64,000 nt of DNA, taken from positions 13,083,030 through 13,147,029 of the forward strand of contig NC_091147.1 in the NCBI RefSeq assembly GCF_041381155.1, given 5' to 3'. Source of the stretch: Argopecten irradians (lineage: Eukaryota; Mollusca; Bivalvia; Pectinida; Pectinidae). Position numbers and translations under genes: made by a program. Numbering within the stretch: position 1 is the first letter of the stretch; each line of letters begins with the position of its first letter. The notes under the pieces were generated by a model, which did no database searches, was not told the DNA's origin, and was given only the letters and a program-made list of their open reading frames with translations. This document shows positions 30,949 through 63,226 of the stretch, piece after piece.

Positions 30949-30970
30949 GTTTCATCCTCTTAAGGTTCAT

Positions 30971-38378: not shown

Positions 38379-38576
38379 AAAGAAAAAATCATCTCTTATT
38401 GTCCCATGATTACTTTAGGTAGAAATAGAAATAGTATTTGCTGTTATTGGATTCATTGTTCATAAAATGCATACCGTATTGAATAGTTAGTTATTAACTA
38501 TTACCAGTGTATATGTTAAAACGTTAATCAATCTTTATGTACGAGGAAATCCTTGTTAATTCACAGCATACATACA

Positions 38577-40628
38577 CTACTTGTATAACCGGGTTGCATA
38601 TATACATAAATACAATATTGCAATTCTGCTAATGGCAGTATTGCCAACAGGGAACGAGGCGTTTGATTTAGCTGATTCCCAATACGCCATCATAGCCATG
38701 TGAAAGTTCCCGAGTATTTGATAACAGATCCCGAGGAGAATGTTGGTTATCCAGAACCTCTGTCCTCCCTGGTGCTCATCATGCTGGACCTGTACCATGT
38801 GGTGTAATGCTTCATCACGTCCTCTGGTGTCTCCAAGCTCGTGGCAACACAGGTAGGTCAGGAATAACACGTATGGCAGAGGTGGCATCGCTACAAATTG
38901 CAAATCATTGGCCAGTTCTAGACATAGATGAGGCACATAAATGTCTGAACGCTGAAATACCATGGCTTTTGTGAATATATTCTGAAACGCTTCCAATGAA
39001 TTATCACGACGTCTATGGTTACCATGGTGCAGATGCAAAAGGTAGGGAACGTCTGGAAAATCGTCATATCTATATCGCGAAGCAATATTTCTTACATCTC
39101 GGCTCATCTGCAGGCATTTGCTTATGTTTCCAATAACGAAGTAATACGTTGCCAAATGCAACACTTCAGTGCCAAATGAAGCGTTCGGGGACATCCATAT
39201 CTTACATTTCCTTAGTCTTTTGTATCTTGTCTTGTTGTCTAGACCATTTTCATTATCACCAACATGTTGAATTATCAGTTTCGATGCAAGATATCTGAGG
39301 CTATCCATGGTATAGAAATATGTGTAAAGTACGTCAAAATCTGACTTTGAAGTAGATAAAAAGTGAAGCAATTTGTTCGTATTTCTTCTTGTATTTATGT
39401 TTTCTAAAGCTGCATATGTTTCCTGAACCATAGCAATAACATTTTCATCCGCAGTTATTGGACGCACAAGACGAACTTGCATGGAACTGTTACACAGATC
39501 TGCCCAAATCGAAGGTTTGTAGAAGTTTCCGACCGAAAGGCATAGCCATTTCATCTGACCATAGTTTTCCAAAATACCCAGTAATATTTGTTGATGCTGC
39601 CCGTGTACTTTCCTCTTGAACATGTTGTTGGCTGGAATGAAGTAGTTGGGACAAAATCCTGCCCTGACCCATGCAATCAGAACGCTGTAGCAAAACCAAA
39701 AACAATAAAACAGATTTTTGTCTTGCCAGAACATTTGACTTGTTTGCTCTATTGCATAAAACATGATTGTTTTCATGAAGTAGGAACACAAGATGTCGTC
39801 GTCACCAATGATTTATTTTAATGCTTTCTTTATTTGTTTTAAGAAGTATTTCAGCAGCGTGTACACTTTCACTTGGACGTAACTAAACGAGTGAACTAAA
39901 CACTTTTCTGCTACTGCAAGCGAGATTCTCCATTGTAAAAATGTATCTTCTGAACACTTATCTCCAACTGGGACAAGATGACATCCTCCTTTCACAATCT
40001 TGTCTATCAATGTTTGAGAGGGCCAGCCATGCATACGTGTACGGGTAATCCATTCTTTTGCTTCTTTTGGCCAACTGTAACATGGAAAACAATGAACCAA
40101 GTCATTTTCACTGTCATTGCCATACCAACCCATCACTGTACAACTTGGTCCGGTAGATTTCCTATTTGGACATATGACTTTGGTTTCTCTGATAATTTCT
40201 TCCCTGTATAGATCACTTGAAATAAAAATAGAATTTCCAATTTCAATTAGGAAATTATATACTTGAAAAGGAACTTCATCTTTCATCTGAACTACCTCTA
40301 AGTGGACAAAGCCAGGGCGACAGTCAACTGCCTCTCGAATGTACAGAATTGTTTTGTTTGCACTGTATAGAGGTATACTATCATCAGGGTACATCACTAC
40401 AACAGATTTGTTTACTAGCATAGCGTCCAAGTCTGATCCTTTCTGAAAACATCCTTCTGCATTGCTTCCAGTTTGAATGTAATCATAAATATCACCACTC
40501 TCCATACGATCTTTTAATACGATTCCTCTTCTCCTAATGTTAAGGCACTCCTCCGTCCCAATATACTTCCTCTCCAGTAAAGTGGACAAGAGCAGAGACA
40601 TCCGCTCACTCTCCGTGGAACTCATCAT
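38577..40628 (-). pseudogene. Mab-21/cGAS-like nucleotidyltransferase with TPR-like tail, copy 1 (one in-frame stop)
   Basis: One long exon begins at ATG ATG (40628), 11 bases after a CCACAG acceptor, and is open for 684 codons except for a single TAA at 39815-39813 (codon 272). Copy 2 has GAA (Glu) at this codon. The N-terminal half carries the nucleotidyltransferase signature G54-S55-x10-D66-x-D68 and an acidic E111 where a third metal ligand is expected. Next come CFPCYSWP, GWPSQTLIDKI, LQWRISLAVAE and, after the stop, SYFMKT and YFIPANN, all Mab-21 family marks. Residues ~560-683 form a TPR-like helical repeat (LLGICYQILGNFHMAMMAYWES). Relatives include cGAS and cGAS-like receptors, which make cyclic dinucleotides on sensing nucleic acid. 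Activity, ligand and expression are unknown. The stop could be an inactivating mutation, an allele, or a sequence error. Confidence 0.85.
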
Positions 40629-40738
40629 CGTTATCTGATCTGTGGAGATACATAGAAGAATACTTCAAAAAATGATAAGTATCTTATTATTACTGAGACA
40701 ACAAACCTGTTGAATCAAATAGTTATTATTTAAAGATT

Positions 40739-40861
40739 AACTTTCTGTTTTATTTAGGTTATAACTACAATGGAACACGGAACGCGAAGCCGGTTATGTA
40801 CAATTTACCCGTGTTCCATTGTAGTTATCCCCCGATAACCTAAACAAAATAGAAAGTTAAC
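40739..40861. repeat. Fold-back element in intron 1 of Mab-21-like copy 1
   Basis: Arms of about 50 bases (TTAACTTTCT..TTTAGGTTAT..ACTACAATGGAACACGG) are inverted around a loop of about 25 bases. The stem is nearly perfect. It lies about 110 bases upstream of the coding exon acceptor and is absent from the corresponding place in copy 2. Confidence 0.88.
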
Positions 40862-41171
40862 CCTTATATTTACAGTTTTATTATTTGTCACTGTAAGTTC
40901 CTTGCGTGTATATATTTCCATGTTGAAAGAAGAAAAAAATGCATTTATTTGGTTGTCGATAAATTTCGTTTCTGAAACGATATCATTGGAACAGCCTATA
41001 GTTTCAACCTTTTGACACCATGGCAACAAAACGAACAACTACTTTCAATAGTTTACATATTTTAATTTCTTTACCTTGCAAAATAGTACAAGCAGGTATA
41101 GGTATGATATTTCATAATACAAAAAAATCAAAATTCATTCAATAATTTGTAACAAATCATTCAATAATTTG

Positions 41172-43216
41172 TAACAAAGATAAATTGTACACGGGACTTT
41201 ATTACAGCGCGGGAATTTCATAATTTTTATTATGCATCATTGACTGGATCTACTTGACGATGTTGAACTGGAAGGAGCAGTTACTGAAGCTTGAATTTGT
41301 CAACATTCCTGACTGGATAGTGGGTAACACCGACGTATTTTAGATGGAGTGTGTTGGAATTGAAAGATCGTTTTGAATTTGTGTGAAAACCGGACGAGTG
41401 ACTGTGCTTGTGACTGGAACACGTGGGACAATCGCCATTACACCGTCAGATAGGCTTACACCAGTTGAACTTGCTACGGAGGAAAGCGTGGTACTAATGG
41501 ACTGTTTTTGTGAGTTAGAACAGTCTCGTGAATACGATCTAATATATGCTTCATTTTTGTGTCCGCTCATATACATTATTTGGCGAGTTTCAAGCCCAGC
41601 ATCACTCAGACATTGGATCACTAAAATCACGTAAACAGTGCGCGGTGTACCGTGTGGAACAGTGCATTTTTACAAATGTCGGGTAAGAAATTTCTGAAAG
41701 TGTGCTTACCAAGTGAGTTGGCACTGAACGAGACTTTTTCAGTAATGGGAGACGTCAGTTCATCTTTGTTTATTTGATTAAATATCAATATTTCGACTGG
41801 ACATAAAGAGGAGTTTGCAGCGTATATTCGCCGGTCCGACATGGCCTCTTCGCTCACAAGGCCACCCTGATAATGTTTTTGTTTTGTTTCTTGTGTGAGT
41901 CTAGCGTACTGTTTTCCCTGCGGATCTTTGACTAATTCAAATGAATGTCCCCTGACGCATTCTTTCTTTCAACAGACCTCCAATTTTCTTGTTTAAAGTT
42001 TTAAAGCTTTGTCGTGAACAATGTCAATATTTCTGCCTATATCAGACAAATGTCTATTTATAGCCGATCTAATAGATTTCAAAGTGTTTTTATGGTATTC
42101 TGCCGCCTGTTCACGTGGCATATTTGCAGAAATCCTTTTCTCGGGATCATTTGGCTTGGCCTCACAAAAAATTTTCCCAGTTTCGCTGACACCTCTTCTT
42201 TGCTGACGGCTTTTAGGTCCATCGCGTTCCTATACGTCTCACAGTGCCACTCTAAAAAGCAAATTAATTTGCATATTTTGCTAGAATTATAGTGTTTTTT
42301 TTTAGTTTAGATTTTCTTTTAATCTTATTTAATTTCAACCATGATTTTTAATCAGTTCTTAGGCTTACAGTTATATCAAATGTTGTGACCAAGTGATGAT
42401 TTAAAATGCACTCGATGATGTAAATGCTCTGACAGATTTGAAATTAAAATTTCTGTATTGCATTTCCAATTTGCAGTGTGTTTATTAACTGCACATTTTT
42501 TTAAAATTAATGCTACAATGTACCTTGCAGGATCTTTATCCCCCATTTCGTACTCTTTTTCGTAGTTTTTGCTTGGTTGAGGTCTTCCAGTTGTTTCAAT
42601 TGTTCCTCAGTTTTTGTTCCAAATCTCTTTCTTTTCTGTTTTACATGTTGGAACATTAACGTAAACAGAGGTTGGTATAATGGGACTCTCCTGGGCTGGT
42701 AAATCGTCAAATGCTGGGATGCCTAATACCTCGGACATTGAAAATATATCTTTGATATCAAGAAAATCAGACGTCTGTTTTTATGACTGAATAAGATCAT
42801 CGAAGTCTTCATTGTCCAACTTGTTTTCCTTCTCAGCCATGTCTGGAAGGTCTATTGCAAAATTTCCATCCATGTCAGATTCCTTGTTAACGCTGGCTAA
42901 AGCAGACGACCCTTTGACGCTTGATAATGCACGCGAAACTATTCCATTTCTGTAATTTTTCCTCTCGTTTAATTTTTTTTTATTTTTTTTTTATTTTTCT
43001 TACACTTAAATCCCTGGACAATGGAGATGTTTACATATAAGTATATGAAGGCGTGTTTGTGTTTTAGTTGAAATCTCGGATCTGTGACATCTATAAATAG
43101 CAAAAATAACGGGAATCCCCCGCATACCCAGTGAACACAGTACATGTGTTACTACACGCACGAGAAGGACTAGAATTAAAAAGGTTATAGAGTCAATTAC
43201 AAAGGTATCTGTAAAT
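41172..43216 (-). mobile_element. Crypton-like DNA transposon, copy A of a head-to-tail pair
   Basis: The minus strand encodes pieces of a tyrosine recombinase of the Crypton (DUF3504/KIAA1958-like) type. An N-terminal KRFGTKTEEQ..KKSTKWGIKIL segment (42710-42524) ends at a GTACAT donor. After an acceptor at 42253-42252 comes EWHCETYRNAM.. and a SIRSAINRHLSDIGRNIDIV segment, the usual DNA-binding core. CPVEILIFNQ..LGKHTFRNFL (41857-41630) and GLETRQIMYMSGHKNEAYIRSYS (41630-41340) form the catalytic end, with GHK and the candidate nucleophile Tyr. The frame shifts several times between these pieces, so no complete recombinase is encoded. Relative to copy B, 53 bases near the left end are missing. 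Confidence 0.72.
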
Positions 43217-43218
43217 AG

Positions 43219-45316
43219 TAACAAAGATAAATTGTACACGGGACTTTATTACAGCGCGGAAGGATATACTAACGCCTATTGAAACTCGATGTGATTCGGT
43301 CACAAGTCGCGGGAATTTCATAATTTTTATTATGCATCATTGACTGGATCTACTTGACGATGTTGAACTGGAAGGAGCAGTTACTGAAGCTTGAATTTGT
43401 CAACATTCCTGACTGGATAGTGGGTAACACCGACGTATTTTAGATGGAGTGTGTTGGAATTGAAAGATCGTTTTGAATTTGTGTGAAAACCGGACGAGTG
43501 ACTGTGCTTGTGACTGGAACACGTGGGACAATCGCCATTACACCGTCAGATAGGCTTACACCAGTTGAACTTGCTACGGAGGAAAGCGTGGTACTAATGG
43601 ACTGTTTTTGTGAGTTAGAACAGTCTCGTGAATACGATCTAATATATGCTTCATTTTTGTGTCCGCTCATATACATTATTTGGCGAGTTTCAAGCCCAGC
43701 ATCACTCAGACATTGGATCACTAAAATCACGTAAACAGTGCGCGGTGTACCGTGTGGAACAGTGCATTTTTACAAATGTCGGGTAAGAAATTTCTGAAAG
43801 TGTGCTTACCAAGTGAGTTGGCACTGAACGAGACTTTTTCAGTAATGGGAGACGTCAGTTCATCTTTGTTTATTTGATTAAATATCAATATTTCGACTGG
43901 ACATAAAGAGGAGTTTGCAGCGTATATTCGCCGGTCCGACATGGCCTCTTCGCTCACAAGGCCACCCTGATAATGTTTTTGTTTTGTTTCTTGTGTGAGT
44001 CTAGCGTACTGTTTTCCCTGCGGATCTTTGACTAATTCAAATGAATGTCCCCTGACGCATTCTTTCTTTCAACAGACCTCCAATTTTCTTGTTTAAAGTT
44101 TTAAAGCTTTGTCGTGAACAATGTCAATATTTCTGCCTATATCAGACAAATGTCTATTTATAGCCGATCTAATAGATTTCAAAGTGTTTTTATGGTATTC
44201 TGCCGCCTGTTCACGTGGCATATTTGCAGAAATCCTTTTCTCGGGATCATTTGGCTTGGCCTCACAAAAAATTTTCCCAGTTTCGCTGACACCTCTTCTT
44301 TGCTGACGGCTTTTAGGTCCATCGCGTTCCTATACGTCTCACAGTGCCACTCTAAAAAGCAAATTAATTTGCATATTTTGCTAGAATTATAGTGTTTTTT
44401 TTTAGTTTAGATTTTCTTTTAATCTTATTTAATTTCAACCATGATTTTTAATCAGTTCTTAGGCTTACAGTTATATCAAATGTTGTGACCAAGTGATGAT
44501 TTAAAATGCACTCGATGATGTAAATGCTCTGACAGATTTGAAATTAAAATTTCTGTATTGCATTTCCAATTTGCAGTGTGTTTATTAACTGCACATTTTT
44601 TTAAAATTAATGCTACAATGTACCTTGCAGGATCTTTATCCCCCATTTCGTACTCTTTTTCGTAGTTTTTGCTTGGTTGAGGTCTTCCAGTTGTTTCAAT
44701 TGTTCCTCAGTTTTTGTTCCAAATCTCTTTCTTTTCTGTTTTACATGTTGGAACATTAACGTAAACAGAGGTTGGTATAATGGGACTCTCCTGGGCTGGT
44801 AAATCGTCAAATGCTGGGATGCCTAATACCTCGGACATTGAAAATATATCTTTGATATCAAGAAAATCAGACGTCTGTTTTTATGACTGAATAAGATCAT
44901 CGAAGTCTTCATTGTCCAACTTGTTTTCCTTCTCAGCCATGTCTGGAAGGTCTATTGCAAAATTTCCATCCATGTCAGATTCCTTGTTAACGCTGGCTAA
45001 AGCAGACGACCCTTTGACGCTTGATAATGCACGCGAAACTATTCCATTTCTGTAATTTTTCCTCTCGTTTAATTTTTTTTTATTTTTTTTTTATTTTTCT
45101 TACACTTAAATCCCTGGACAATGGAGATGTTTACATATAAGTATATGAAGGCGTGTTTGTGTTTTAGTTGAAATCTCGGATCTGTGACATCTATAAATAG
45201 CAAAAATAACGGGAATCCCCCGCATACCCAGTGCACACAGTACATGTGTTACTACACGCACGAAAAGGACTAGAATTAAAAAGGTTATAGAGTCAATTAC
45301 AAAGGTATCTGTAAAT
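43219..45316 (-). mobile_element. Crypton-like DNA transposon, copy B of a head-to-tail pair
   Basis: This copy repeats 41,211-43,216 at a constant 2100-base offset. By eye only a couple of substitutions separate the copies (for example near 43,136 versus 45,236 and 43,164 versus 45,264). It includes the 53-base segment near its left end (43,258-43,310) that copy A lacks. It has the same recombinase pieces and the same frame breaks, so both derive from one already degenerate element by a recent duplication rather than from two independent insertions of an active element. Confidence 0.75.
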
Positions 45317-45322
45317 ATTAAT

Positions 45323-45640
45323 GAGATAACACACCTGTATAATCAAAAAGTTATTATTACTGAGATAACACACCTGTATAATCAAATAGTTATTATTACT
45401 GAGATAACACACCTGCTTAATCAAATAGTTATTATTACTGAGATAACACACCTGTTTAATCAAATAGTTATTATTACTGAGATACAATGTAACACACCTG
45501 TATAATCAAAAAGTTATTATTACTGAGATAACACACATGCTTAATCAAATAGTTATTATTACTGAGATAACACACCTGTTTAATCAAATAGTTATTATTA
45601 CTGAGATAACACACATGCTTAATTAAATATTCATAATAAC
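45323..45640. repeat. Minisatellite, 39-bp unit x ~8
   Basis: About eight copies of a 39-base unit (TGAGATAACACACCTGTATAATC...) abut the right end of Crypton copy B. One copy contains a small insertion (GATACAATGTAAC). A single diverged copy occurs at about 40,690-40,735, on the other side of the Crypton pair. A minus-strand open frame over the array translates as a repeat (YLSNNNYLIKQVC) and is not taken as a gene. Confidence 0.9.
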
Positions 45641-46859
45641 TGTTGCTTTGTCTTTCTTCGCTTTTTGTTTGTTTACCACCACAGACATCTGTTACAGACA
45701 GTAGTAAGGCATTTCGTATCGATTTTAAAAGATTGATTTGATATCTGAACTTGTGATTTTGACGTCATATTTTGATTATGACGGTAGTATTGCCTGTGTG
45801 GTCGCGATAGCGGAATAATTAAAAGTGTGTCTTAATATATTTATGACTGGGTTATATGACATGGCTGAACGGGTCGTTTATGTTATAATAAGTTTCATAA
45901 GCAAAAATAATTAATTAATTAGAAATTTGTTGAAAAGGTGGACACAGGGGATTCCCTTAACATATACGAAGAGTATTGTTAGTATTGTCATTTCAGGCCC
46001 TTTATGCCTTTTTTCAAAAAAGGCAAAATGGATCAAAAGTACATAACAAGTAGTTCTAGACCTTTAACATTGGAAAATTTTCACGAAATCGGAACGTGAG
46101 CAAATTTTGCAACCCCAACTTTAGTATATATTGTTACATTGAAAGGAATGGCATAATGTTCTCCCATACTTCCTGATCATAGTCAAAATCAATCCCAATT
46201 TGGTTTGTCAGGTTATTGGAGAATTATTTATGTTAAGTAAACTATAAAAATCTTGAAATGGGAAGAGATAGCTCTATCTTATACAAATGGGTTGTAAGGC
46301 AGCTTACATACACTAGACAATTCATTTGTTGATGGTTGATTTGATATTTGAACCTGTGATTTTGAGTAGCTGAAATAGAGGATTGTACATGACTTGTAAT
46401 GTCGTATAAAAAGTAATGTGCATGTGGTGGGTCCTTTTTGATCCATCGCTCTTTTATTAAGAAATTATTGTATTAGACAAATTGAAGCATTTAATATTCC
46501 ACGAGGCATTAGGCGAATAAAATATTTAATTTATAGTTTAATAAGTCTCATATTACACACTAGTGTATTAATCATTTAATTTATGTTAACGAAATTATAA
46601 AAAAAAATCAATCTCGTTTTTCTATAATAAGGTGAATTTAGGCTCGAAAGTGACGTTTCTGTCTACCGAGACAATCGTGTGACGTCATATTTTGATAATG
46701 ACGGTAGTATTGCCTGTGTGGTCGCGATAGCGGAATAATTAAAAGTGTGTCTTGATATATTTATAACTTGGTCATATGACATGGCTGAACGGGTCGTTTA
46801 TATGATGATAAGTATCTATGTCAATGTCATTCATAGGAAGAGTATAAGAACACACTTAC

Positions 46860-46950
46860 CATGCACTTCAACAGCATCAGTATAAACTTCATGAGTTATC
46901 GAAGAACGTTCCAGTAATCTATTGAATATGTTAAATGCGTCAGCTCTCGG
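46860..46950 (-). other. Noncoding first exon of Mab-21-like copy 1
   Basis: On the minus strand a consensus donor (G|GTAAGTG, GT at 46859-46858) ends a segment that closely matches 54,534-54,625 upstream of copy 2, including AACTCATGA and GATGCTGTTGAAGTGCA. With the TATA box at 46,983-46,973 the start would be near 46,945-46,950, giving an untranslated exon of about 90 bases. It would splice to the coding-exon acceptor near 40,640, across an intron of about 6.2 kb that contains the Crypton pair. Confidence 0.65.
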
Positions 46951-46972
46951 TATGAAAATGTACATCCGAAGG

Positions 46973-47030
46973 CCTTTATATAGGTTTTGTCACACATGTC
47001 CCGGCAGGTCAAAAGTTAAAAGTGAAATTG
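46973..47030 (-). promoter_or_regulatory. Promoter of Mab-21-like copy 1: TATA box, DR1-like and IRF-like motifs
   Basis: The TATA box CTATATAAAGG lies at 46983-46973 on the minus strand. Upstream is a block shared with copy 2: CCCGGCAGGTCA, a DR1-like pair of nuclear-receptor half sites (AGGTCA-A-AAGTTA, read on the plus strand near 47,006), and an IRF-type core AANNGAAA at 47020-47027 (plus strand). Conservation of this block between copies, while intron sequence is not conserved, supports function. The factor assignments are motif inference only. Confidence 0.55.
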
Positions 47031-47639
47031 ACGTAAACTGATTTTAAGTAGTGTATTATCCTCACATGTCCAAATATAGACAATAACTGGTAATATGTTA
47101 GTGTGTTTCCCTGTTTACGTAACAATTTAGAGAAGTTTCATGACAAGTTTGAAATAAACAATATTTTCTAGTGAGAAAAAGTACTGTCTGGTTTAGAGGC
47201 TGCATCTTGATTATCTCCATAAACAGTATGAAGAAAATAAATAGAGGATCTTACACTCGTGACTATGTAAATATGAAATTTATCAAACGAGTTCAATAAT
47301 TTGATATGCCACGAGCCTTTAGGCGAGTGGCATATCGAATTATTTAACGAGTTTAATAAATTTCATATTGCATAGTCATGAGTGTAAGATTCTCTTTATC
47401 ACATAACTTTTAATAATAGAAATATACGTAAAACTTTAGATTTTGTCTCTATATAAAACAGTAGAAATCCGGCTTGGATGTGGCGTTTCCATCTACTGAG
47501 AAAATCATGCGACGTCATAGATAGAGTATGACGTCAAAACTACATGTGACGTCACAATAGTGTTATTACACATGTGTCTTAGGATATTTATGACATGGCC
47601 GTTTGACATGACTGGACGGGCTAGTTATGTGATAAATTG

Positions 47640-50450
47640 TATTATATAACTGTAAATAGTTTTTATTATCATACAAACTTCCTCGTAAAGTCTCCATTAT
47701 CTTAATCGCGACCTAACATGTTTCGGGAATAATTGTTTTAAAATGTAAATCAAAATAATGTATTCACTGATACATATATAAATTGATCGAGACGCGAATT
47801 AAAGTATGAAGTGGCTTACGATTATTCATGGGAAAATAACCAATATCAAAGATAAGCGATACTAAATCGGTAATATTATTTAAGTAATAAAGAACAGCCA
47901 ATCAAACAATACCTAGTAATTGAATAAAAAACAAAAAACAGTTTGAGTCCACATATGTCTAATAATATTGATTATCTATGAAGTAAGCGATTCAAGTATT
48001 ACGTCACTTGCGCGGAATATTAGTACATTAGACAGATCAGGACAGATAAAAAAATCTAGCATGGGACACCACAGGAGATTTCCCTGTGCGACGTGGGAGG
48101 GTATATTAATCTACGTGTGTGAGTATTTCCTTGTTAACAAATGATGAGAGAATCCATTAATCATATACCAGTTTAGTGTGAGGAGGAAATATGACGCCCA
48201 TTTCAAGTGTATCATCATTAGTATCGAGCTTTCCAATCTCTAAGGAAACAGAAATTTAACAAAAATAAAAATGATAAATGATGTATTACGTGTGACTCAG
48301 ATGCATAAGGAAATGTATGCGATAATCTAATATTTATACTTATTGAAAATGTAGTATTTGCGCACGGTATCCTCGATATTCAAAGGGTTACTATCACTGT
48401 GATAATACACACCCCTGAAATATCGCCATAGCGAATCCCAAATCTCTTTGTGCGACAACAAATGAGACAGGTAGTTTGGTCCTTTGATGTACATCAAAAT
48501 AATTGAATAACGGTACAGTGTATGGCATTCAGGTTGAGAGTCGCCCTAATCTTCAAACGAAGTCTCTGAGGCCTGTGATTGGTCAGTGATATTACCCCTG
48601 AACTGCTTTCAAATTTTGCTGTGGCATATTCCATGGTGAGTATCGAGGAGGTATACATGCTTGTCTAACGATTCAGACGGGTATCTTTGGAGAAAAAGCT
48701 GTTGAGCGGAATACAAATATATTGATAATTGTGTTTTTAATTATTTGTTCTTTTTATACTAAATCCTACTTTGTGATTGGCACTAATGTTCATTCTTTAT
48801 CCAAGAATGACGTAAAACACAAGATGATGTTACAATAGAGACATGGACATTGCTCATTAATCAGGAAAAATAATCAATAGAATCGTACATTTAAACGTAT
48901 TTGATTTCAATAGGTATGAAAATATTAATTATAAGCATCAATGTCACTACATGTATTTTTAGCCCCATCGGGATATGAATAATGTTTGCAAAAATTCTTA
49001 TTCATTTTCCGATAAAATTAATTATTTGTTATGTAGTGTTTTATTGGGATGATACGGAAATATATTGAGCCAATGGCAATGTTAAACCAAATACAACTTT
49101 TTTTCATTGACCCAATATATTTCTGTATCACCCCTGTAAAATTCTTTTAAACGATTTTATCCCAATGGTGGTCTTTCGTAAGTCATATAACAGATACTCT
49201 ACTTTAATAGTTTGAGGTCATGCAAGCATATGAGCCAAGAGAGCCCTTCGTTAAACTAAAATGCTACGTAAATTGTGGTAGAGAAATCATCAAATACTAG
49301 CTGACTTACAGACACTGGTCTTATTTATTGTTTCTTAAGGCAGTGTTTTTCTTACCTTGATTATATTCGCTTCCAAAATAAATATATACAGTTTGTATAA
49401 CAATGTGTGTTATCCAATGTTAATCTTAACGATTTTTTACAGCAAACATCAACATGAGAAAGCAATATATATATAGCTTGAACAAACTCAGGTATGCTTT
49501 GAAAACAATCACGATTTCATATTGGATCAAATGAGAACATATTCATTTAAACATTGGCTTTAAAAATAGTTTTTAATGAAAGAAAAGTTTAAAAAATGAT
49601 ATGTTTAATACAATGATCTAAAAACTGCTGCATTTTTTTTTTATTTCATTTGAACATTTTAATTAAAAAAACACTAATGCATATAATAAATTTTAAAGAA
49701 TACTTGATGAATGAAAATACGTTTTAATGTACGATTCCGTTTATTACTAATTAATATTAATTATTTACCAATGCTGTAGTTAAAGATTGCGTCAATGATA
49801 ACAATAATAATTTAATGGCATTATTTTCAGTATTCTTAATACATATTCTCAATACATCAATAAAAATGTCTTAATTCTATACATTCACATGTATAGATAG
49901 GATCTTAAATGAAAATTAATTTCATATGAAGTTTTATAAAACTAGTCTTAGCCTTGTTCTTTATATTTTTGCGAGCATTGAAGAGCAAAGAATGAAATCT
50001 CATATAAGATAAACACAAATGTAAAATACTTTTTATCACACGACTAAAACATTTCGGAGAATCTCAATATCAAAATGTGTTGTAAAATCTATCAAGGCCG
50101 CCATTTTGTCCCGACGTTCTCGAATTCTGACGTCACATGGTTTTAACTGACGTCAAATTATGACGTCACCCTTACTTTCCGGTCAACGAAAAGCGATCTA
50201 GGTTATATAGTGATATATACAAAAGTATATGAGTGTAGTCACAAGATATCAGGTAGATTTTTGTGATGAAATCATATATTATTATAATATTCAATTTTTG
50301 AGTAAAACTGGTTAGATACAGTTAAAACTATATTAACCACAACTAATAGTGGTAGTAATCCCTGGAACAACCCCACTTTCACGTGCTTCATAAATGTCTT
50401 GCTTGGTTTTCGTACATTACAAAATCATCTTTCTTTGTTTCAATTATTGC
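47640..50450. other. Spacer between the two Mab-21-like copies
   Basis: No gene or promoter is evident apart from the copy-2 3' flank at its right end. The stretch is very AT-rich. It contains a fold-back at 49,028-49,145 and a run of GACGTCA motifs near 50,130-50,170 that resembles the CRE-rich half of the local fold-back family. Confidence 0.45.
49028..49145. repeat. Fold-back element
   Basis: Arms around GATACGGAAATATATTGAG..CAATG and CATTGACCCAATATATTTCTGTATC are inverted about a short AT-rich loop. Outer flanks (TTTTATTGGGATGA / CACCCCTGTAAAA) extend the pairing weakly. Confidence 0.75.
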
Positions 50451-50696
50451 TAGGGTAGAAATAATAATTGTATTTGGTGTTATTTGATTCATTGTTCATA
50501 AAATGTATACCTAATTGAATAGTTATTAACTATTACTAGAGACAATTGAGCCTCCTTTAAATTTTTCCTAACAAGTCATCTTTTTATAAAGGTCTCTCAG
50601 AATTACACTCAGAACATACATTATAGAGCTTTTTATCCACTTATTTAAAATTCATTAAGTGCATGTTACTCCTTGTTGATTTACATCATACACACA

Positions 50697-52738
50697 CTAT
50701 TTGCATAACCGGGTTGCATACATACATAAATACAAAATAGCAATTCTGCTACTAGCAGAGTTACCATATTGATACATGGCGTTTGGGTTAGCCGACTCCC
50801 AGTACGCCATCATAGCCATGTGAAAGTTCCCTAGTATTTGATAACATATCCCGAGAAGTGTGTGGGTTATCCAGAACTTCTGCCCTCCCTGGTGCTCATC
50901 ATGCTGGACCTGTACCATCTGGTGTAATGCTTCGTCACGTCCACTGCTGTCTCCAAGCTCGTGGCAACACAAGAAGGTCAGGAATATGGCGTACGGCAGG
51001 GGTGGCACGACCAAAAAAACGACTCTTCGGTCAGCTCCAGACAAAGATGAGGGAAATAGAACTCTGAATGCTGAAATATCAAGGCTTTTGTAACTACTTT
51101 CTTAATCGTCTTTAATGAATATTCACAAAGCCGAGGCAAAAGGTCGGGATTCAAAGTTTGATATCTGTAGAACGAAGCTGGCTTTATCACGTCTCTGCTC
51201 AGCTTCAGGCATTTGCTAATATTTCCAATAACGAAGTGATACGTTGCCAAATGCAAGACGTCCGTTCCAAATGAAGCATTCGGGGACATCCATATCTTAC
51301 ATTTCCTTAGTCTTCTGTATCGTTCCTTGTTGTCTTGGCCATCTCCATTATCACTAACGTTAACGTTTTCAGTGAAACGTTCCGAAGCAAAACATCTGAG
51401 GCTAGCCATAGTAAAGGAATATGTGAAAAGTTCTTCAAAATCTGACTTTGAAGTAGATAATAAGTTAAACCTTTTGCTTATATTTCCTCTGGTCAAATTT
51501 TCCCTTCCTAAAGCTTCCAATATTTCGAAAGCCGTATACATAAACGTTTCATGTACAGTCAGTGGACGCACAAGAAAAGCTTGCATGGAAATGTTACAAA
51601 GTTCTTCCCAAATCGAAGGTTTGTAGAAGTTTCCGACAGAAAGGCACAGCCATTTCATCTTACCATAGTTTTCCAAAAGATCAAGTAATATTTGTTGATG
51701 CTGTCCGTGTACTTTCCTCTTGAACAAATTGTTGGCTGGAATGAAGTAGTTAGGACAAAATCCTGCCCTGACCCATGCAATCAGAATGTTGATGCAAAAC
51801 CAAAAACAATAAAACAGGTTTTTGTCTTGCCAGAGCATTTGACTTGTATTCTCTATGGCATGAAACATGACTGTTTTCATGAAGTAGGAACACAAGATGT
51901 CGTCGTCACCAATGGTTTCCTTTAATGTTTCTTTTATTTGTTTTAAGAAGTATTTCAGCAGTATGTACACTTTGACCTGGATGAAAGTAAACGAGTGAAC
52001 CAAACACCTTTCTGCTACTGCAAACGAGATTCTCCATTGTAAAAATGTATCTTCTGAACACTTATCTCCAATTGGTACAAGATAACATCCTCCTTTCACA
52101 ATTTTGTCAATCAAAGTTTGAGAGGGCCAGCCATTCATACGTTCACGGGTAATCCATTCTTTTGCTTCTTTTGGCCAACTGTAACATGGAAAACAATGAA
52201 CACAGTCATCGCCATATCCTAAGCTATGCGGACTACTGACTGTACAACTTGGTCCGTTAGATTCCAAACATATGCCTGCGCATACGCTGTTGTGGTTTGT
52301 GATATGTTCTTCCCTGTATAGATCACTGGAAATAAAAATAGAATTTCCAATTTCAACTAGGGAATTATATACTTGAAAAATAACTTCATCTTTCATCTGA
52401 ACTACCTCTAAGTGGACAAAGCCAGGGCGACAGCCAACTGCCTCTCGAATGTACAGAATTGTTTTGTTTGCACTGTATAGAGGTATACTATCATCAGGGT
52501 ACATCACTACAACAGATTTGTTTACTAGCATAGCGTCCAAGTCTGATCCTTTCTGAAAACATCCTTCTGCACTACTTCCAGTATGAATGATATCATGAAT
52601 ATCTCCACTCTCCATACATTCTTGCAATACCACCCTATCTTTCTTCATATTAAAGAACTCTTCCGTCCCAATATACTTCCTCTCCAGTAAGGTAGACAGG
52701 AGCAGAGACATCCGCTCAACCTCCGTGGAACCCATCAT
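50697..52738 (-). pseudogene. Mab-21/cGAS-like nucleotidyltransferase with TPR-like tail, copy 2 (one frameshift)
   Basis: This is the paralogue of 38,577-40,628. The coding exon starts at ATG ATG (52738), shortly after a CTCCACAG acceptor. The open frame extends 60 bases further upstream, but those bases include the acceptor and intron. The signature G54-S55-x10-D66-x-D68 and the Mab-21 marks are intact for 586 residues, including Glu where copy 1 has its stop. A 1-base deficit at a 7-T run (51019-51013) then shifts the frame, and translation ends at 50978. The remaining ~100 codons of the TPR-like tail (50,697-51,010) stay open and conserved in the other frame. Either the tail was recently lost, or the assembly dropped one base in the homopolymer. 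Family role as for copy 1: a cytosolic, possibly cyclic-dinucleotide-making, immune-type enzyme; unproven. Confidence 0.85.
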
Positions 52739-54169
52739 CGTTACACCTGGAATATACGATCTGTGGAGATAGATAGGACAAACTGTAAAAAGATACAAAC
52801 TCTTTCATGACATGACAGAAGTCATTACCAAACTATCTGATTCTAGATTGGCGTTTTAAACCTCAACAGTGATATAGTGATATTTCCAGCTATTCGTGAA
52901 TGTTTTCTTTGTTTCACAGTGATGTGGTATTATCAGTTTTCAATAATAAACGTGAACGTACTACGTGCGCGGATACGGACGCATAATGTACAAATTCTAG
53001 GGGTCGTTTCAAAAGAAAAGTTCCATTTCCTATATTTGCAACGAACCAAACGTTGCGCCCTAAACTACGCCCATAAGTTACATACACAGATATGTTGAAA
53101 TGCCAGATGTCTATGTAGATGGTTTATGTTATATACATACGTGTACATGTAGAGAGATGGTTGGATATGGGATGGATTCCACACGGTTGAGTTATTTTTT
53201 TAAACGTTTCAAAAGGCACAATAACGTCTATCCACTTTTTTCACAGTTGCTTGAGCAACTACTAATTGTCGGACTATAAAAAACGTATGCGCACGCCAGG
53301 TTGACATATACTCCGGCAAAATAATCATCAAACTATTGTATTCAAGTTCAAATGAATTTCCGATTCGTTTAATCTACCAAATTTATTAGTATAATTAACC
53401 TTATTGGTGACGTTGACAAAACGTTATGTGGAAAAAGAAGGTCGGCCAATGTTTGGCGTATTATCCAATCAGAATGCGAACAGTTTGTTAGATACCAGCT
53501 GTGATTACTTGATCGGTTGAATAACTTCCAACGATTTTGGTAGAATGAGAACTATGTAAAAGAGTAAATAGTTCATATCTGGAACATAAGTTAAGAATTA
53601 AGTCCAGAGGTTAATATCATTTTAATCAGACAGAGGAAATTGTTTTAGTAAAATATAATCATATATGTCGGCACCAATGTTCTGTCGTAGAAAGGTTCAG
53701 TGCACGTGATTGTTACCGTTTGACCTAACACACGTCAAAGCGCCCCCTAAGTCAAGGGTACGCAACCCATGCCTACCCCGATTCCGTTCATCTTCTCCAC
53801 GGTGTAACAGATATAGCCCTACCGTGCGTGTACATTTTCTAATAATATGCCTATAACAGACGGCGATTTCCGTGCGTAGATGATAATATTTACTGACAAA
53901 AAGCAAACAATTAATCATAAGTGTGAATTGATAACCAATTAAAAATAAGTTATGCAATGTTAAAAACATATAAATTGCTTATGACATTTCCCTACTAAAC
54001 CATTAGTATCATTTACTCGAAAGTTATAACAATATATTGAAAATAATATTGAGTCCTCTATAACAACAACTATAAAAAAGCAGAAGTACGGTAGCAGGTT
54101 AGTTTTTATTTACTCTAAATTAAGAAGATGCATACCATACAATATCGCCGGTATTGTATGTATTAATGA

Positions 54170-54345
54170 AACAAATGCGCCTGATTTAAACATGGCTACC
54201 CTGGTTGGAGTTTGAGCAGAATGACCCAAATATTTTGTTTGCTATATATGATATATGATAACCTAGACTTTAATTATAGAACACAATAGCTAACTAATAT
54301 TCCTTTGTTTTAATTATACATTACAAAACCTTTACACACTTTAAC
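54170..54345 (+). repeat. Dispersed repeat, inverted relative to 56,110-56,295
   Basis: The stretch containing ATGGCTACCCTGGTTGGAGT, AACCTAGACTT and GAACACAATAGCTA matches the reverse complement of 56,110-56,295 at about 80% by eye. The pair brackets about 1.8 kb and could be the ends of one element or two independent copies. Confidence 0.6.
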
Positions 54346-54533
54346 TCTGTGGTCTATTTAAAATTATCTAGTTTGTTGTTCGCTTGTACGTTCACGCTTA
54401 TTAATGGAAATGTCTAGTATGTTCTCTATGTATTACAAAATGGTCGTATTTAACGACTGAACGGACTAGTCATGTGAAAAAATATTACATGCATCTTGAA
54501 CTTAATTCAATAGATTATCATAATGCACTTACC

Positions 54534-54625
54534 GTGCACTTCAACAGCATCAGTATGAACCTCATGAGTTATCGAAGAAAGGTCCAGGTATCTATTGAAT
54601 AGTTCAAATGCTTCAGTTATCTATA
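54534..54625 (-). other. Noncoding first exon of Mab-21-like copy 2
   Basis: The minus-strand donor (G|GTAAGTG, GT at 54532-54531) and the preceding ~90 bases match the first exon of copy 1. The intron to the coding exon acceptor near 52,770 would be about 1.8 kb, much shorter than in copy 1, which carries the Crypton pair. Confidence 0.65.
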
Positions 54626-54648
54626 TTCAAATTTACAGCTTCGGAGGT

Positions 54649-54710
54649 CTTTATATAGGTTTTGCCACAAATGTCCCGGCAGGTCAAAGGTTAAAAGTAG
54701 AATTGAAATA
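54649..54710 (-). promoter_or_regulatory. Promoter of Mab-21-like copy 2: TATA box, DR1-like and IRF-like motifs
   Basis: The TATA box CTATATAAAG lies at 54658-54649 on the minus strand. The adjoining block (TGTCCCGGCAGGTCAAAGG) aligns with copy 1. Here the DR1-like site is closer to consensus (AGGTCA-A-AGGTTA near 54,681), and an IRF-type core AANNGAAA lies at 54701-54708 (plus strand). Motif assignments are inferred. Confidence 0.55.
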
Positions 54711-55259
54711 GACAGGCTTTATATACCATACGTAGTTTTACATACTCTGTTGACCAAATATGTATGTATGGTAAACGGTAAGTGGAAGCGTGTGTATACT
54801 TCCTTGTTTATGAAACAGCCTATATAAATTTTCCTGACAAGCTAAAACTAACAATATATTATATTGGGAAAAGTCGTTAAAGTTATGTGTTGTAACTAAG
54901 CGAAAATTTTGAAATGTTGTTCTTTTCTTCATTAATCTTTATAAATTAAGCCGTGAAAAGCAATCAAATTGTTTCAGATGCCTTATAAACGTAAGTTACA
55001 ACACAGCAATTATGCACTGTAAAATTGTTGTTTTTTATGCCTTAAGTATGTTTTGATGGAAACATTCCTAAATTAAATTCCATGTTGAAAGCTTATCTTG
55101 ACCCTGCGCACTATTAAAAATACGGCCCATATAACTTTAAGGCATATCCTTTTTCATACATTCATATAATAAAACATATTTATGATTCCGATTCTTTATT
55201 TTGCTTAAGTTGCAAAATGTCACTTATAACAATATTATAACAATAAGTGTTTGGGTTGT

Positions 55260-55790
55260 TACCTGTAATTATATTCCGTTGTTTTGGGTGTGACTTATAA
55301 CTTTATCACTGATGTGGGGGATTTTTTGTGTTTTTTCAGGTTTCGGATTTTTTTTTTTATTAAAGCAAGTTATAGGGTGATATGGGTTCGTCCTTCTAAC
55401 ATCATGCAGCCTCTCACATGTGACTTGTACCTACACTGTATATCGCGATGTTCGGAACGTGACGTACAGCTATATCCCTGATGTTTCTTAGTTGTTTTTT
55501 TTTTAGGTTTTGGATTTATTTTTCCCAGTAAGTTATAGAACGACTTTCCCTGTGTATGTTATGTGATGCGGTTCGTGGATGTCTGTATTTTGGGAGGCTG
55601 TAGTATATCCATACTTGGTCTCCTTGTGTCAATGGGTCTCTTTTTATAGCGATTTCTCCCTGAGACATGCTGCCAAAGACACCGAACAAGGACACCCAGC
55701 CCGGTCACATTATACTGGCAACGGACAAACCTGTCGTCCCATTTCCTTTATGCTAAGCATTAAGCACGTGCAGAACAAATAGCTAACACA
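55260..55790 (+). repeat. Interspersed repeat (second copy of the 6.9-7.0 kb family)
   Basis: The stretch shows internal semi-repeats (GTGACTTATAACTTTATCACTGATG; GTGACGTACAGCTATATCCCTGATG) followed by poly-T/GGTTT..GGATTT segments. It ends with CTGCCAAAGACACCGAACAAGG..CACATTATACTGGCAACGG. The last part matches 6,925-7,005. It is most likely part of a dispersed noncoding repeat; the family is not named here. Confidence 0.5.
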
Positions 55791-56483
55791 CCGTCAACAC
55801 TGATATACCCTGGTAGGATTGTGAAATAAAACACTTATAATATCACCTATTTCCCTCATATGTGTCCTATCTAAACGAACCATGGATTATTCCATAAATG
55901 TTTGTTTTCGAATAGGCATAAAAAAGACTTTTGGTGATCACATGCATTCACCACTATAGTTTCCTTGTTCTATGTGAACTTAAACCTCCCACGTCATTCA
56001 TGACTATATTTAGCACGTAGTCCTCATGTTTCGGTATTTCTATGACGTTGTGCCAAACCAAGATAAAACATCATTTGATGTAGAAATGCTATTAACAACC
56101 AACTAAATATAAAGTAAAAATGGCTTCTTAAAGGTTTGTAATGTATTATTGAAATAGCTGCATATAATATAAGCTAGCCATTGTGTTCTATTCTTTTAAG
56201 TCTAGGTTCTCATATAACACTAGATAGAAAAAAAGTTTGGGTCTTTCAGCTCAAACTCTAACCAGGGTAACCATTTTGAAATAAGATGCATTTTACATTA
56301 AAAAAAATCCTGAAATTCTAATGTTTTTACAGTTTTCATTATCGAAATTGATTTCTTAAACCTGAATTTCAATCTGAATTTTTAAATTCATATCATTGTT
56401 ATCTAGAAATAATCACCTGTCAGAAACATTTTCACTTTTCTAATTCATAAATCGGGTCCAAATTCTATCCAAGGCTCAATCTT

Positions 56484-56762
56484 CTATACACAGAGGCCAT
56501 TTCGAAGGTCTATTTTGTATTTAGTTGGTTGTTCCCATGTAAGATGTTCCCATGGAAGACTGAGTATACATTCCATTGTATACACAATGTTTATATCAGG
56601 CACTGTCCTAGCTATTGTGGATTTTCTGGGAAATTTTGTTTTTATTTCTAACAGGAAAATGACATTATCAAGCATGAGAACATCATCACTACTTGGTCCT
56701 CGTCCAACAAACCTATTGTTTCCTTCTATGCGACATTTGTCGGGAAATACAGATACTTGAGT
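56484..56762 (-). CDS. Unidentified open frame of about 90 residues
   Basis: On the minus strand the frame is open from a possible acceptor (CTCAAG) near 56,762 to a stop at 56484. It encodes a compositionally normal peptide (FPDKCRIEGNNRFVGRG.., then SDDVLMLDNVIFLLEI.., WEHLTWEQPTKYKIDLRNGL). I do not recognise the family. Base composition is more coding-like than its surroundings. It lies just beyond the dispersed repeat at 56,110-56,295 and might be an exon of an unseen gene or part of a repeat. The opposite strand is also open over much of it. Confidence 0.25.
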   Translation of the reverse strand, partial: TQVSVFPDKCRIEGNNRFVGRGPSSDDVLMLDNVIFLLEIKTKFPRKSTIARTVPDINIVYTMECILSLPWEHLTWEQPTKYKIDLRNGLCV

Positions 56763-58337
56763 ATGAAGTACGTATCGTACACGAACACAGTCATGATGTT
56801 TATTTTTAAAATCAGTATTTCATTTACAGTTTGCTTTTCAGATTCTGGTATAATCTGTGTAGTAGGAGAAAAAGAATAGGCGTCACTTCACGATTACTAA
56901 TAACACTTTGAGATTAAGATCACTAGTGTCACAATCCTTCCCCATTTCACTGTGAATACAAAGAATATAAATCACGACATTAATTGTCATTAACAGAATT
57001 TTGATGCATCGTAAGTATTTCAATTCTCAAATATTTAACCCTTTAGGTGGTAAAAAACATACCGTATAGTCGTTTATTTTCGTGGTGATCGTCTTCGCGA
57101 GCCATCGCATAATTTTGCTTCGTGAAATGTTATGATTTGTAGAATCTGATATGCCTGTTTATGCCAAATCGTGACATTTTGATTCGATAACGTTTTATTG
57201 TCTGCTTTAAGGTCATAACTGCAACAATTATCTAAAAAAAACGAAATGAATCTTCTATACGTTAACAAGTACTTGAGCCACATTATATGACTGATTATGG
57301 CACAAAATTGTCACTACTATAGTATATAGTATGTACTTTAGCCTCAGAGTGGAAACATATTCCTTTCTTTTGTACTTATATAGGAGGTATTGATGTTGTC
57401 CTTGAGTGTGTAAGTAATCTGGTACATCAGAATGCGCCATGGATCATGTTTGACCGTGGGAGTTGTAAACTCTTCCTGAAGTCTGTAGTGGAGTGGTTTA
57501 GCATAAAATCGTTCATTGTTTTAAGAACAACTACATATTTTGACATATAAGTTCAGAAAACAATATAACTTCGAAAATATACCCACTTTAGCGGTCGCCA
57601 TATTGTTTATCGTCAGAGGCCGTAGTTTTTGGAAGTTGATTTTTTTCTTAAAACTTATAACCATAAATAAAATTATACACAAGGTGTTTTTTCAAACTTT
57701 GAAAGAATTGACAGAAAAATATGCATATATTACGTACACTATTGTCATAGAAAATCGTAATAATGTTTGATTCGCGTAAACAATTGTATAAAAGATTTTC
57801 CTTCCTAATAATAATTAGAATAATTTGCCTAATAGTGTAGTTGGTTTTCGTGTTTAGCTCTCGAACTTGAGGGACCTTAACTAGGCACATACAACGATGA
57901 TATTGTTTGTGATTGCATTTCAGGTTTGTATCTCATTATACGTACACAAAACATTGTAACCAATGGCAGCATAACCTCGAACTTTAACTTTTTTCTTTGG
58001 TAAATAAGACTGAGATTATAATAATAATATTTTTTATCTGCTAACTAATGTTGAACGCATTATATCGCTCGACTCTCTCCGCCATATTCAAATAAAGGCT
58101 AAGAAATATAAAAATATATATGATATTTTGTCTGCATGATTATAGATCTAGGGTCAAATCATTCTCGAATGTTTAATGGACTGATTTCTTGATATAAAAT
58201 AAACGAAATGCTCTCAGATGGCCTCTTATTATCATATATAGAAACCAAACATAACGTTTTCTTTAAAAAAAAGTTAAATCTGAGCTCGTCATGTGTAAAG
58301 CATAGCTACAATAATATACATATGATACAAAACTTCT

Positions 58338-58715
58338 AAAAATGATGATGATGATAATGATGGTGATGAAAATTGTGATGATGATGATCATGATGATGAT
58401 GATGATGATGGTGATGGAAATTGTGATGATGATGAGAGCATGATGATGAAGGTGGTGGTGGTGATGATGATGAAGGTGGTGGTGATGATGATGATGATGG
58501 TGGTGGTAATGATCATGATGATGATGATGATGATGATGGTCGTGATGTTGGTGATGATGATGATGGTGATGATGATGAGGATGATGATGCTAATGATGAT
58601 GATGACGATGATAACGATGATGATGACGATGATGATGATGACGATGATAACGATGATGATGACGATGATGATGATGACGATGATGATGATGACGATGATG
58701 AAGATGATACACTTA
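58338..58715. repeat. ATG/GAT trinucleotide microsatellite
   Basis: About 380 bases of imperfect GAT/ATG repeat with GGT and GAC variants. Both strands are open over long distances (poly-Met/Val on plus, poly-Ile on minus), which is the usual artefact of such repeats. No gene is inferred. Confidence 0.95.
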
Positions 58716-60050
58716 ATGTAGTTCATCGCCTGATGTACATTTAATTTAGCCGACCCTGATCACTGTAGTTTCGGAAAGCATTTCATTCGGGCAACTGCTA
58801 AAACTTACTAGTATATTAAATATGTCAAATGTATGTTTATTGTAATGTAATTATATATGCTGTTTGTTTAAAAAATTGTAAAATTTAAAAAGTTTGCCTA
58901 GCTTGCATGAGTCCCTGATATTGCCTTCACACAAAGGAATGCGGATACTACAAATACTTTATAAATAGGCGACCAATGATTTTTGTTGTAAATAAATAAA
59001 AAGATAAAAAATAATCGCAAATAATATAAACCAAGATAACTCATGTGGTCTGTAACGTTTTTACGTCCTCGGTTAAATATTTTTTCTTTGGTCGATATAA
59101 CCACGTGTCGACGTCATCAAAATGCTATATTTCTTACATTCCTACAGAATGGACAGCGAAAAAAGAAAACAGACTTTGTAAAGAAACGGTGTTAAATGGA
59201 AGTAAGATAGTGCGTAGTTATTAAGGTGTATAATTGTCGGCAAGAAGTGCAACCGACTTGTATATCAATGTGATTTTGAGCAGAATCATAAGAGGAAAAC
59301 AAAACTGGAAGACAAGAGTGATTGTTTCAACAGGGCGGAACGTATTGAGGTGATATATCCCCAGGTTTGAGTGTTATAGATATCGGTAATCCCAACACGG
59401 ACAATAGACAGACTCTTGATGAAAAGGATGAACAGAATGTATGTGAAAAATACAAAGATTCCGTTGATCAAGGCTGGGCATGGGTAGTGTTACTAGGTAA
59501 GTTATAATTTTTTTATATGTGAAAAAGGCACAAATCCTTGTTCAGGATTTTTTTCAAGTATGATATTTTTTCACTTTAGACCATATAAACAACTTTGTGA
59601 TTTGGGGACGTTTCGGATTTAGATGGTGGAGAGAGACCGCAGTACCCGGAAAAAATCACCTACCAGTTGTCAATACAAGAGTTTTTTTTACTCCGAGAGC
59701 TTAAAATATGACATCAATGACTACAATTAATATTCTGAAATATTTGATTTGCTTTGATTGCCAATGGCTTATATATTTCCACACGGAGGTCGACGTTTTG
59801 ACTTATTTTATTAATATTATAATTAGTTAGTAATTCCATTTTTACAACATCAAGTCAATATTAATATTATGAGGTCACAAACCGGTCAACTCACAATTGC
59901 CCAAACCTTGAGTTTCGTAGGTTTGTAGCCTAGGGATACCCATCGTCTTTCTTATAATTAAATGCTTATCATATAATGCTATTGACATTTGTAACAAACT
60001 CATAACCTACTATAAGGACTAAGAACCTTTACATCGGTCAGTATAGTGCT

Positions 60051-61874: not shown

Positions 61875-63053
61875 TTTCATTTAAAACGATAGGAACTATG
61901 TTTTGAAGATAAATTTAGAAAACTTTGTAATTCGGATGCCCCACGAAATCGCAATATATTTCCCGCTATATGGCATGTTAATGAACATATTTTTTTAAAA
62001 GGCATAAACAGAAAAGAGTATTCTGGCAAATTGTTTATATGAATCTGCACATAATGAAATCCGTGATTGAAATATTAATCATACGTTATGTAATGAAAAC
62101 TCTATCATCCTCAACCCCAAGCGAAATCGCACCGTCGCTAGGCCACATTCTCTATGAATATTCATAAGTGAAAGTTTGCGGTCCAATGAAAATGTGTATG
62201 CACGTGGCACGACATTAAAATTTCCTTCTGATGTTTTCAAGGTGAAGGATGAATGATTCTGTTTATCTTGCCTTCTGACCATATTGTGTCTCTAATAATG
62301 ATGTGTCATCAATGCATACAAGAATGACGTGACCTGATTGAATTTTCGTCATCGTGGTTGCTCTGACGTCATTGCATTGTTGTCTGACACCATACTACAA
62401 ATATCACGACGCCATGTCATTGTTACAGCAATATAATGGGACTGATTCACGTTCCATGTGATACTTGCTAAAGTTTGTCCGGAACTATTTTTTTCTGTTT
62501 GTGGTGATGGAATGACGCTAAAACTATGATAGATCGCGCTGATGTCATTTCACCTAGAATATAACAAATAGTTACTTTCCATCACCACTGGAGATAATAG
62601 TTCTGCACAAACGTTATCGGGTACCACATGGTACATTAATGTTACATAAAATAAATTGCGGGTTTCCTAGTCCTGGAAAAGAAAATATGTTATTTCTTCA
62701 TCGACGCGAATCATCTGAAGCGATATTAGATTGTAAACAATGGAACATTGTAATTAACTAAAGTTTGTGTTTCAGGAGGATTTTCGTATCCTTTTCCATA
62801 GTTGGAAGTCAAAAATCGTTTGGAATGCTTTACGCCGATCTATCGACGGAATATCGGACGTCCAACAAGGCCTTATCTATCACACAGTCACTAGCTGGTT
62901 TTCTACAGCAGTTTCTAGGTCAGTTATCTTTTACAGTGCTACAATAAATATTTACTCACCGTTAATGTTTACACAAGATATTCTGCCCTCAAAATCAGGT
63001 TACTCTGAATTTCCCTATGTGTCCATATTCCAATCAAAACCTCAAATTCCATC

Positions 63054-63226
63054 TTTGCATATTGAAAAACTTAACTCTCTTGTAGGTAGGTAAATATTGT
63101 TATTTTATTATTTTGTAAGCGAAACTCACGTCGTTTTCTCTGAAATCATGACGTTACGCTTTTAAAATAATTTTTGTTATAATCAATTCCTGCCCGCAAG
63201 GGCAAATAACTCTGCAATATGCAAAT
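63054..63226. mobile_element. Fold-back MITE, TTTGCATATTACAG family, copy 3
   Basis: It begins TTTGCATATT and ends AATATGCAAA, with internal GTAGGTAGGT.., GTCGTTTTCTCTGAAAT and CCCGCAAGGGC segments matching the copies at 16,805 and 17,163. It lies between exons 2 and 3 of the SLC16-like gene, 42 bases before the exon-3 acceptor. Confidence 0.7.

Follow-up and report, generated by a model that had tools for sequence, protein, structure and literature searches.

Tandem duplication of a cGAS-like receptor locus with its promoter in Argopecten irradians, with both sister copies frame-broken as assembled

Two Mab-21-type loci, both on the minus strand, lie in a 64,000-nucleotide stretch of the Argopecten irradians genome (RefSeq assembly GCF_041381155.1, contig NC_091147.1, positions 13,083,030 to 13,147,029; hereafter the window, whose numbering is used unless another contig is named), raising the question of whether an entire locus, from promoter to 3' flank, was duplicated here and whether either copy is still a complete gene. 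The two copies (copy 1 and copy 2) are sisters and belong to the cGAS-like receptor (cGLR) superfamily; they are an ordinary case within a family whose strong expansion in some shellfish is on record. Very probably, an ancestral cGLR gene was tandemly duplicated together with its promoter and the copies diverged, after which copy 1 gained a nonsense codon; copy 2 is frame-broken as assembled. Among the papers listed by library searches on cGLR/Mab-21 expansion, none dealt with this locus.

A blastn self-alignment of positions 36001–57000 recovered three matching blocks, all plus/plus, in conserved order and far above chance: the coding exon (38550–40671 versus 50670–52791; 83.4% identity over 2,152 columns), the promoter and exon 1 (46839–47031 versus 54512–54706; 83.1% over 195 columns, E 1e-52), and the 3' flank (Table 1; 124 columns, E 1.7e-24). 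With the non-coding flanks co-duplicated with the coding exon and their order kept, copies 1 and 2 represent a tandem gene duplication. An initial annotation of this DNA had proposed the duplication of a complete Mab-21/cGAS-like locus with its promoter and 3' flank, and the three ordered blocks at 80–83% identity, with homology extending outside the coding exon, bear this out, as they do its coordinates (accurate to some tens of bases) and the spans of ~8.6 kb for copy 1 and ~4.3 kb for copy 2. The description of both genes as complete did not hold, as copy 1 contains a nonsense codon and copy 2 a frame break as assembled; the annotation had missed these broken frames, along with a third copy outside the window, a 21.7-kb duplication, and a promoter relic on contig C4.

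Table 1 Positions of the features of copies 1 and 2 and of the associated repeats, in window numbering
Feature	Position	Strand	Evidence
Copy 1, 3' flank common to copy 2	38385..38507	-	blastn, 80.6% to 50421-50539
Copy 1, coding exon (exon 2), Mab-21 family	38577..40639	-	ORF list, translation, Pfam; start from acceptor
Two tandem Crypton-like units of 2.0 kb, copy 1 intron 1	41208..45321	.	99.85% identical
Copy 1, non-coding exon 1, donor GTAAGT from 46859	46860..46950	-	three-way alignment; start inferred
Copy 1, TATA box TATATAAAG	46974..46982	-	common to copy 1, copy 2 and C4 relic (one change)
Left unit of 21.7-kb head-to-tail duplication	49085..64000, continuing to 70819	.	blastn, binned alignment
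Copy 2, 3' flank	50421..50539	-	blastn versus copy 1 flank
Copy 2, coding exon (exon 2)	50697..52760	-	ORFs, alignment; Pfam PF03281 and PF20266
Copy 2, non-coding exon 1, donor GTAAGT from 54532	54533..54625	-	three-way alignment; start inferred
Copy 2, TATA box TATATAAAG, in block common to copy 1 and C4 relic	54649..54657	-	three-way alignment

The coding sequence of both copies lies essentially in one exon, with acceptor-like sequence just before it, and a three-way alignment (copy 1, copy 2, and a contig C4 place) delimited a shared block that holds a TATA box and a short leader, plus a GTAAGT donor in the two window copies; a second TATATAAAG (54717–54725) is present in copy 2 only. The transcription start and splicing of the two copies are predicted from these sequence signals, and the putative splice sites would give an intron 1 of ~6.2 kb in copy 1 versus ~1.8 kb in copy 2. 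The ATG in exon 1 was rejected as a coding start, being out of frame with the main frame across the predicted splice in either copy. A dispersed repeat with at least 39 further occurrences starts at ~47238, a short way upstream of copy 1; for the exon 1/promoter block itself, such an origin was ruled out by its occurrence at only four places in the genome. An origin by retrocopying was ruled out because the promoter/exon 1 and the 3' flank are common to both copies.

The promoter and exon 1 are matched on contig C4 (C4:27806840–27807040; L050 ~7200–8210) at 66% for copy 1 and 75% for copy 2. The coding exon was not found in the 7.8 kb examined downstream of this block, and one weak tblastn match (E 0.13) occurs on its other side; contig C4 holds none of the 79 places found with protein queries (see below), and its PF03281 places are ~3 and ~5 Mb from the block, which may be read as the relic of a further gene copy. 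Amongst the relatives, one of two genes on C12 was searched over 4.7 kb upstream without recovering the shared promoter; the sole non-coding match there (60 bp, 75%, E 1.5e-4) was to the copy 2 intron.

Sections of PMC10732462 define the cGLR superfamily as a clade by the Mab-21 nucleotidyltransferase (NTase) domain PF03281, and this domain, scoring 33.3 bits in copy 2 and 30.8 bits in copy 1 (cut-off, 24.1), places both copies in the superfamily. Mab-21_C (PF20266) is likewise over its cut-off in both copies, though in copy 1 it follows the stop. Searches of NCBIfam and, with L006, of the PDB found nothing. The signature of catalytic cGLRs, as given in part of PMC9980059, consists of a G[S/G] activation loop and [E/D]h[E/D] X50-90 [E/D]. 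Five residues (G53, S54, D65, D67, and D177) do not vary across 23 aligned rows from 22 distinct genes (L008 and L042 represent the same gene), such that the activation-loop motif is present throughout, and copy 1 carries the same active-site residues (G, S, and three acids) as copy 2. The D65-L-D67 motif is present, with a middle residue that is not hydrophobic in several relatives, and the invariant D177 would provide a third acid at a gap of 109 (copy 2) or 107 (copy 1), outside the published 50–90. The earlier label of an innate-immune-type enzyme is plausible given the homology and this complete-looking active site.

An AlphaFold2 model of copy 2 (pLDDT 79, pTM 0.80) is predicted to hold D67 and D177 inside strands 66–72 and 176–184, with D65 just before. 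All 50 of the Foldseek matches listed for this model are Sp-cGLR1 or cGAS, with TM-scores by target of 0.62 for Sp-cGLR1 (8gjy) and 0.65–0.75 for cGAS, and the predicted fold of copy 2 is cGAS-like. Beyond approximately residue 350 there is no Pfam match and the chain is modelled as helices, with confidence falling from ~390. The window genes thus resemble Sp-cGLR1 of Stylophora pistillata and the bivalve cGLR radiations described in part of PMC9980059 in the Mab-21 NTase with helical lobes, the GS motif with three acids, and the presence of both a large family and STING-domain places in the genome; they differ in that both window copies are frame-broken, in the longer spacing to the third acid, and in a C-terminal extension of >200 residues past the cGAS-like core. 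Vertebrate cGAS is alike in predicted fold, at the TM-scores above, and in active-site acids, but sits on a separate branch of the tree with only 16–20% identity. MAB21L1 and MAB21L2 have the Pfam domain in common with the window genes, while the MAB21L1-like gene of this genome (L001, C7; phmmer 664 bits to 5eog) falls outside the window clade.

Across the genome (845,758,899 bases in 1,508 contigs), a profile search identified 77 PF03281 places (E ≤ 0.001) and protein queries identified 79 places (E ≤ 1e-10), which, merged within 3 kb, amount to at least 95 Mab-21 places; 47 of these have a neighbour within 50 kb. Broken copies are part of this count, as are six places on C81 and C551 that are likely haplotigs and a seventh short-contig place, on C659, that may be one, and the real number may exceed 95 because the searches score only the best candidates. 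The family is large and often clustered, in agreement with the suggestion of an expanding family like those reported in bivalves, for which sections of PMC9980059 describe cGLR radiations of >200 proteins in some genomes; in the portion of its main text consulted, PMC8382680, on bivalve gene-family expansion, has no Mab-21 or cGAS. A larger cluster than that of the window occurs at C11:1580293–1637307, with six Mab-21 places ~10–16 kb apart. Three STING_LBD places, ~18 kb apart, are located at C14:13865822–13902988, on the same contig as the cGLR array and 0.7 Mb from it.

Phylogenetically, in a tree of 36 rows (30 from this genome, out of the 95 places, four PDB segments, and the two window copies; L005 and L045 are one gene and L037/L049 are a likely haplotig pair), copy 1 groups with copy 2 as its sister (support 100/100), and the pair belongs to a seven-member clade (100/99) that also includes genes on C12 (two), C5, C10, and C14:34 Mb. 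The clade is separate from MAB21L1, vertebrate cGAS, and Sp-cGLR1; its deep placement is not claimed because the program warned of long branches at the base.

A blastn comparison of 134 kb of contig C14 (the window and 70 kb of flank) identified a 21.7-kb head-to-tail duplication, the left unit of which (Table 1) has its partner beyond the window at 70842–92690, with two long pieces matching at 99.1% and 95.4%. Copy 2 sits in this unit, and a third copy is accordingly present at 72432–76504. In 500-bp bins, identity between the units ranges from 100% to 85%, with 37 of 43 bins at ≥98% and two near 65–66 kb at 85%. Relative to positions 50300–54530, copy 3 differs by 27 insertion events (26 no longer than 3 nt), 15 substitutions, and one deletion, versus two insertions, two substitutions, and one deletion between the units over 54530–58500; where the copy 3 stretch aligns with copy 1, 13 of 14 insertions are absent from copy 1 as well. 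Such insertion-heavy change looks like unpolished long-read sequence. The 21.7-kb repeat is either a recent duplication or two haplotypes in series, and the finding that a 3.2-kb piece of the unit has only two full-length matches in the genome fits either reading.

On balance, it is somewhat probable that a single locus underlies copies 2 and 3, the assembler having joined its two haplotypes end to end, and that the array consists of two genes, which is compatible with the duplication proposed for copies 1 and 2. Haplotigs seem to have been retained in the assembly: a pair of gene places on C551 has matches of 98.0% and 97.0% on C81 with their order conserved, C8 matches C81 at 99.4% over 3.5 kb, and the 21.7-kb pair, at 99.1% and 95.4%, is about in the range of these pairs. 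The excess of insertions over substitutions in copy 3 points the same way, and false duplications that inflate gene families have been described (sections of PMC9516828). However, the 134 kb contain no N, and so there is no gap at the 70819–70842 junction, clusters are common in the family (47 of 95 places, as above), bin identities of 85–100% equally suit a true duplication with conversion, and the insertion patch could reflect poor polishing within a genuine copy. The concern that the assembly may present alleles as duplicates applies to copy 2 versus copy 3, outside the window, but not to copy 1 versus copy 2. Elsewhere, C81, C551, and C8:22.80–22.82 Mb are likely retained haplotigs with Mab-21 genes (97–99.4% identity) that inflate gene counts.

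As assembled, none of the three copies has one open frame through the NTase, Mab-21_C, and C-terminal region. An in-frame TAA at 39815–39813 in copy 1 splits the PF03281 part from the PF20266 part, and it is not a homopolymer error because the site reads GAA in copies 2 and 3, with neighbouring substitutions. A further 411 codons are open after the stop, whereas neutral simulation of such a stretch (2,000 runs) gives 4.3–5.1 expected stops at 8–10% change (stop-free, 0.018–0.006) and 2.2 at 4% change (P(0) 0.12); the stop therefore probably arose late. Copy 1 may still function through a truncated product. The open frame of copy 2 extends from 52738 to a stop at 50978, the frame having shifted at a T7 run (51019–51013), and the counterpart of the last stop of copy 1 (50697) is in the other frame. 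Because copies 1 and 3 share another length at this run, the break in copy 2 may be an assembly error. Copy 3 is split over several frames with stops.

With every copy frame-broken as assembled, the locus could be a decaying pseudogene cluster without a working member, though this is unlikely considering that frames elsewhere are open for hundreds of codons, the active-site residues are retained, and the break in copy 2 amounts to one base in a T run. Further, of the six indels that distinguish the coding parts of copies 1 and 2, all but the T7 break have a length divisible by three.

Over 563 codons, copies 1 and 2 have a dN of 0.153 and a dS of 0.218 (NG86; ratio, 0.70), or 0.156 and 0.207 (YN00), and over 590 codons that include the frame-shifted end, 0.179 and 0.241. 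A ratio of 0.70 is high for a constrained gene. The copies are fast-evolving and not exceptional, since ten other non-allelic pairs span 0.23 to 0.96; of these, seven are paralogue pairs that include neither window copy (0.35 to 0.96) and three set a window copy against a C12 or C5 relative at greater distance (0.23 to 0.35). C81/C551, likely an allelic pair, is at 0.54. Substitution between the copies is patchy, with a 137-nt identical run that none of 2,000 codon permutations reached. This permutation test is not specific, as five of the ten other non-allelic pairs also give ≤2 of 500, and uneven constraint contributes to identical runs because one such pair has a dS of ~1.1. The low dS in the region of the run (0.025 between copies 1 and 2 versus 1.06 between copy 1 and a C12 relative) is the better sign of gene conversion. 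Between the copies, dN exceeds dS in the stretch before the third active-site acid and at the start of the C-terminal domain (for instance, dN 0.324 versus dS 0.158 for codons 133–192 of the open frame of copy 1). It is very doubtful that the array acts as a small diversity engine, in which broken neighbours are donors and conversion remodels an expressed copy before the third acid and at the start of the C-terminal domain. Allelism of copies 1 and 2, with one locus mistakenly assembled twice in a row, is effectively ruled out: the apparent haplotigs in the assembly are the only point in its favour, against an identity of 83% (97–99% for likely haplotig pairs), a dS of 0.22, and surroundings and intron contents that differ along the same contig.

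Under tandem duplication with subsequent frame breakage, the ancestor would have been a two-exon cGLR superfamily gene with its whole coding sequence in exon 2, and a duplication, presumably by unequal crossing-over, would have taken in the promoter, exon 1, intron, and 3' flank. The copies would then have diverged to ~83% identity, probably with at least one later gene-conversion stretch in the NTase region, before copy 1 gained its nonsense codon, making it probably a young pseudogene or the source of only a truncated NTase; the single base in the T run that breaks copy 2 near its C terminus could be either a true change or a fault of the consensus sequence. If intact, the product would be a cGAS-type nucleotidyltransferase with an NTase lobe, a Mab-21_C helical lobe, and a helical C-terminal extension, and would be expected to sense a ligand and make a cyclic dinucleotide read by STING; expression, enzyme activity, and ligand are all presumptive for the window genes. 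The coordinates capture an innate-sensor family multiplying by local duplication of whole loci with their promoters, with the caution that haplotypes joined in series, and broken copies taken for genes, can inflate gene counts in such families.

Most of the difference in intron 1 size between the copies is supplied by the tandem pair of Crypton-like units in copy 1 (4.1 kb). The initial attribution of the size difference to a Crypton pair is thus sound with respect to size, while the Crypton nature depends on the domains of a relative elsewhere in the genome (L055), which has Phage_integrase and DUF3504 over cut-off and is 55% identical over 95 residues; five pieces of the first window unit had no Pfam match over cut-off. 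A head-to-tail array of Crypton-like elements also occurs at C10:21153802–21164276 (four equal-score places ~2.5 kb apart, with one gap twice that), and tandem insertion or amplification may be a habit of the element. Outside the two copies, the window contains a ~1.6-kb tandem repeat array at 17639–19245 (copies ~157 bp apart, ~75–78% alike), two overlapping open frames at 30331–31324 that read like gag-like and reverse-transcriptase pieces of a retroelement, and a 176-codon open frame at 63448–63978 that by reading resembles a monocarboxylate-transporter exon.
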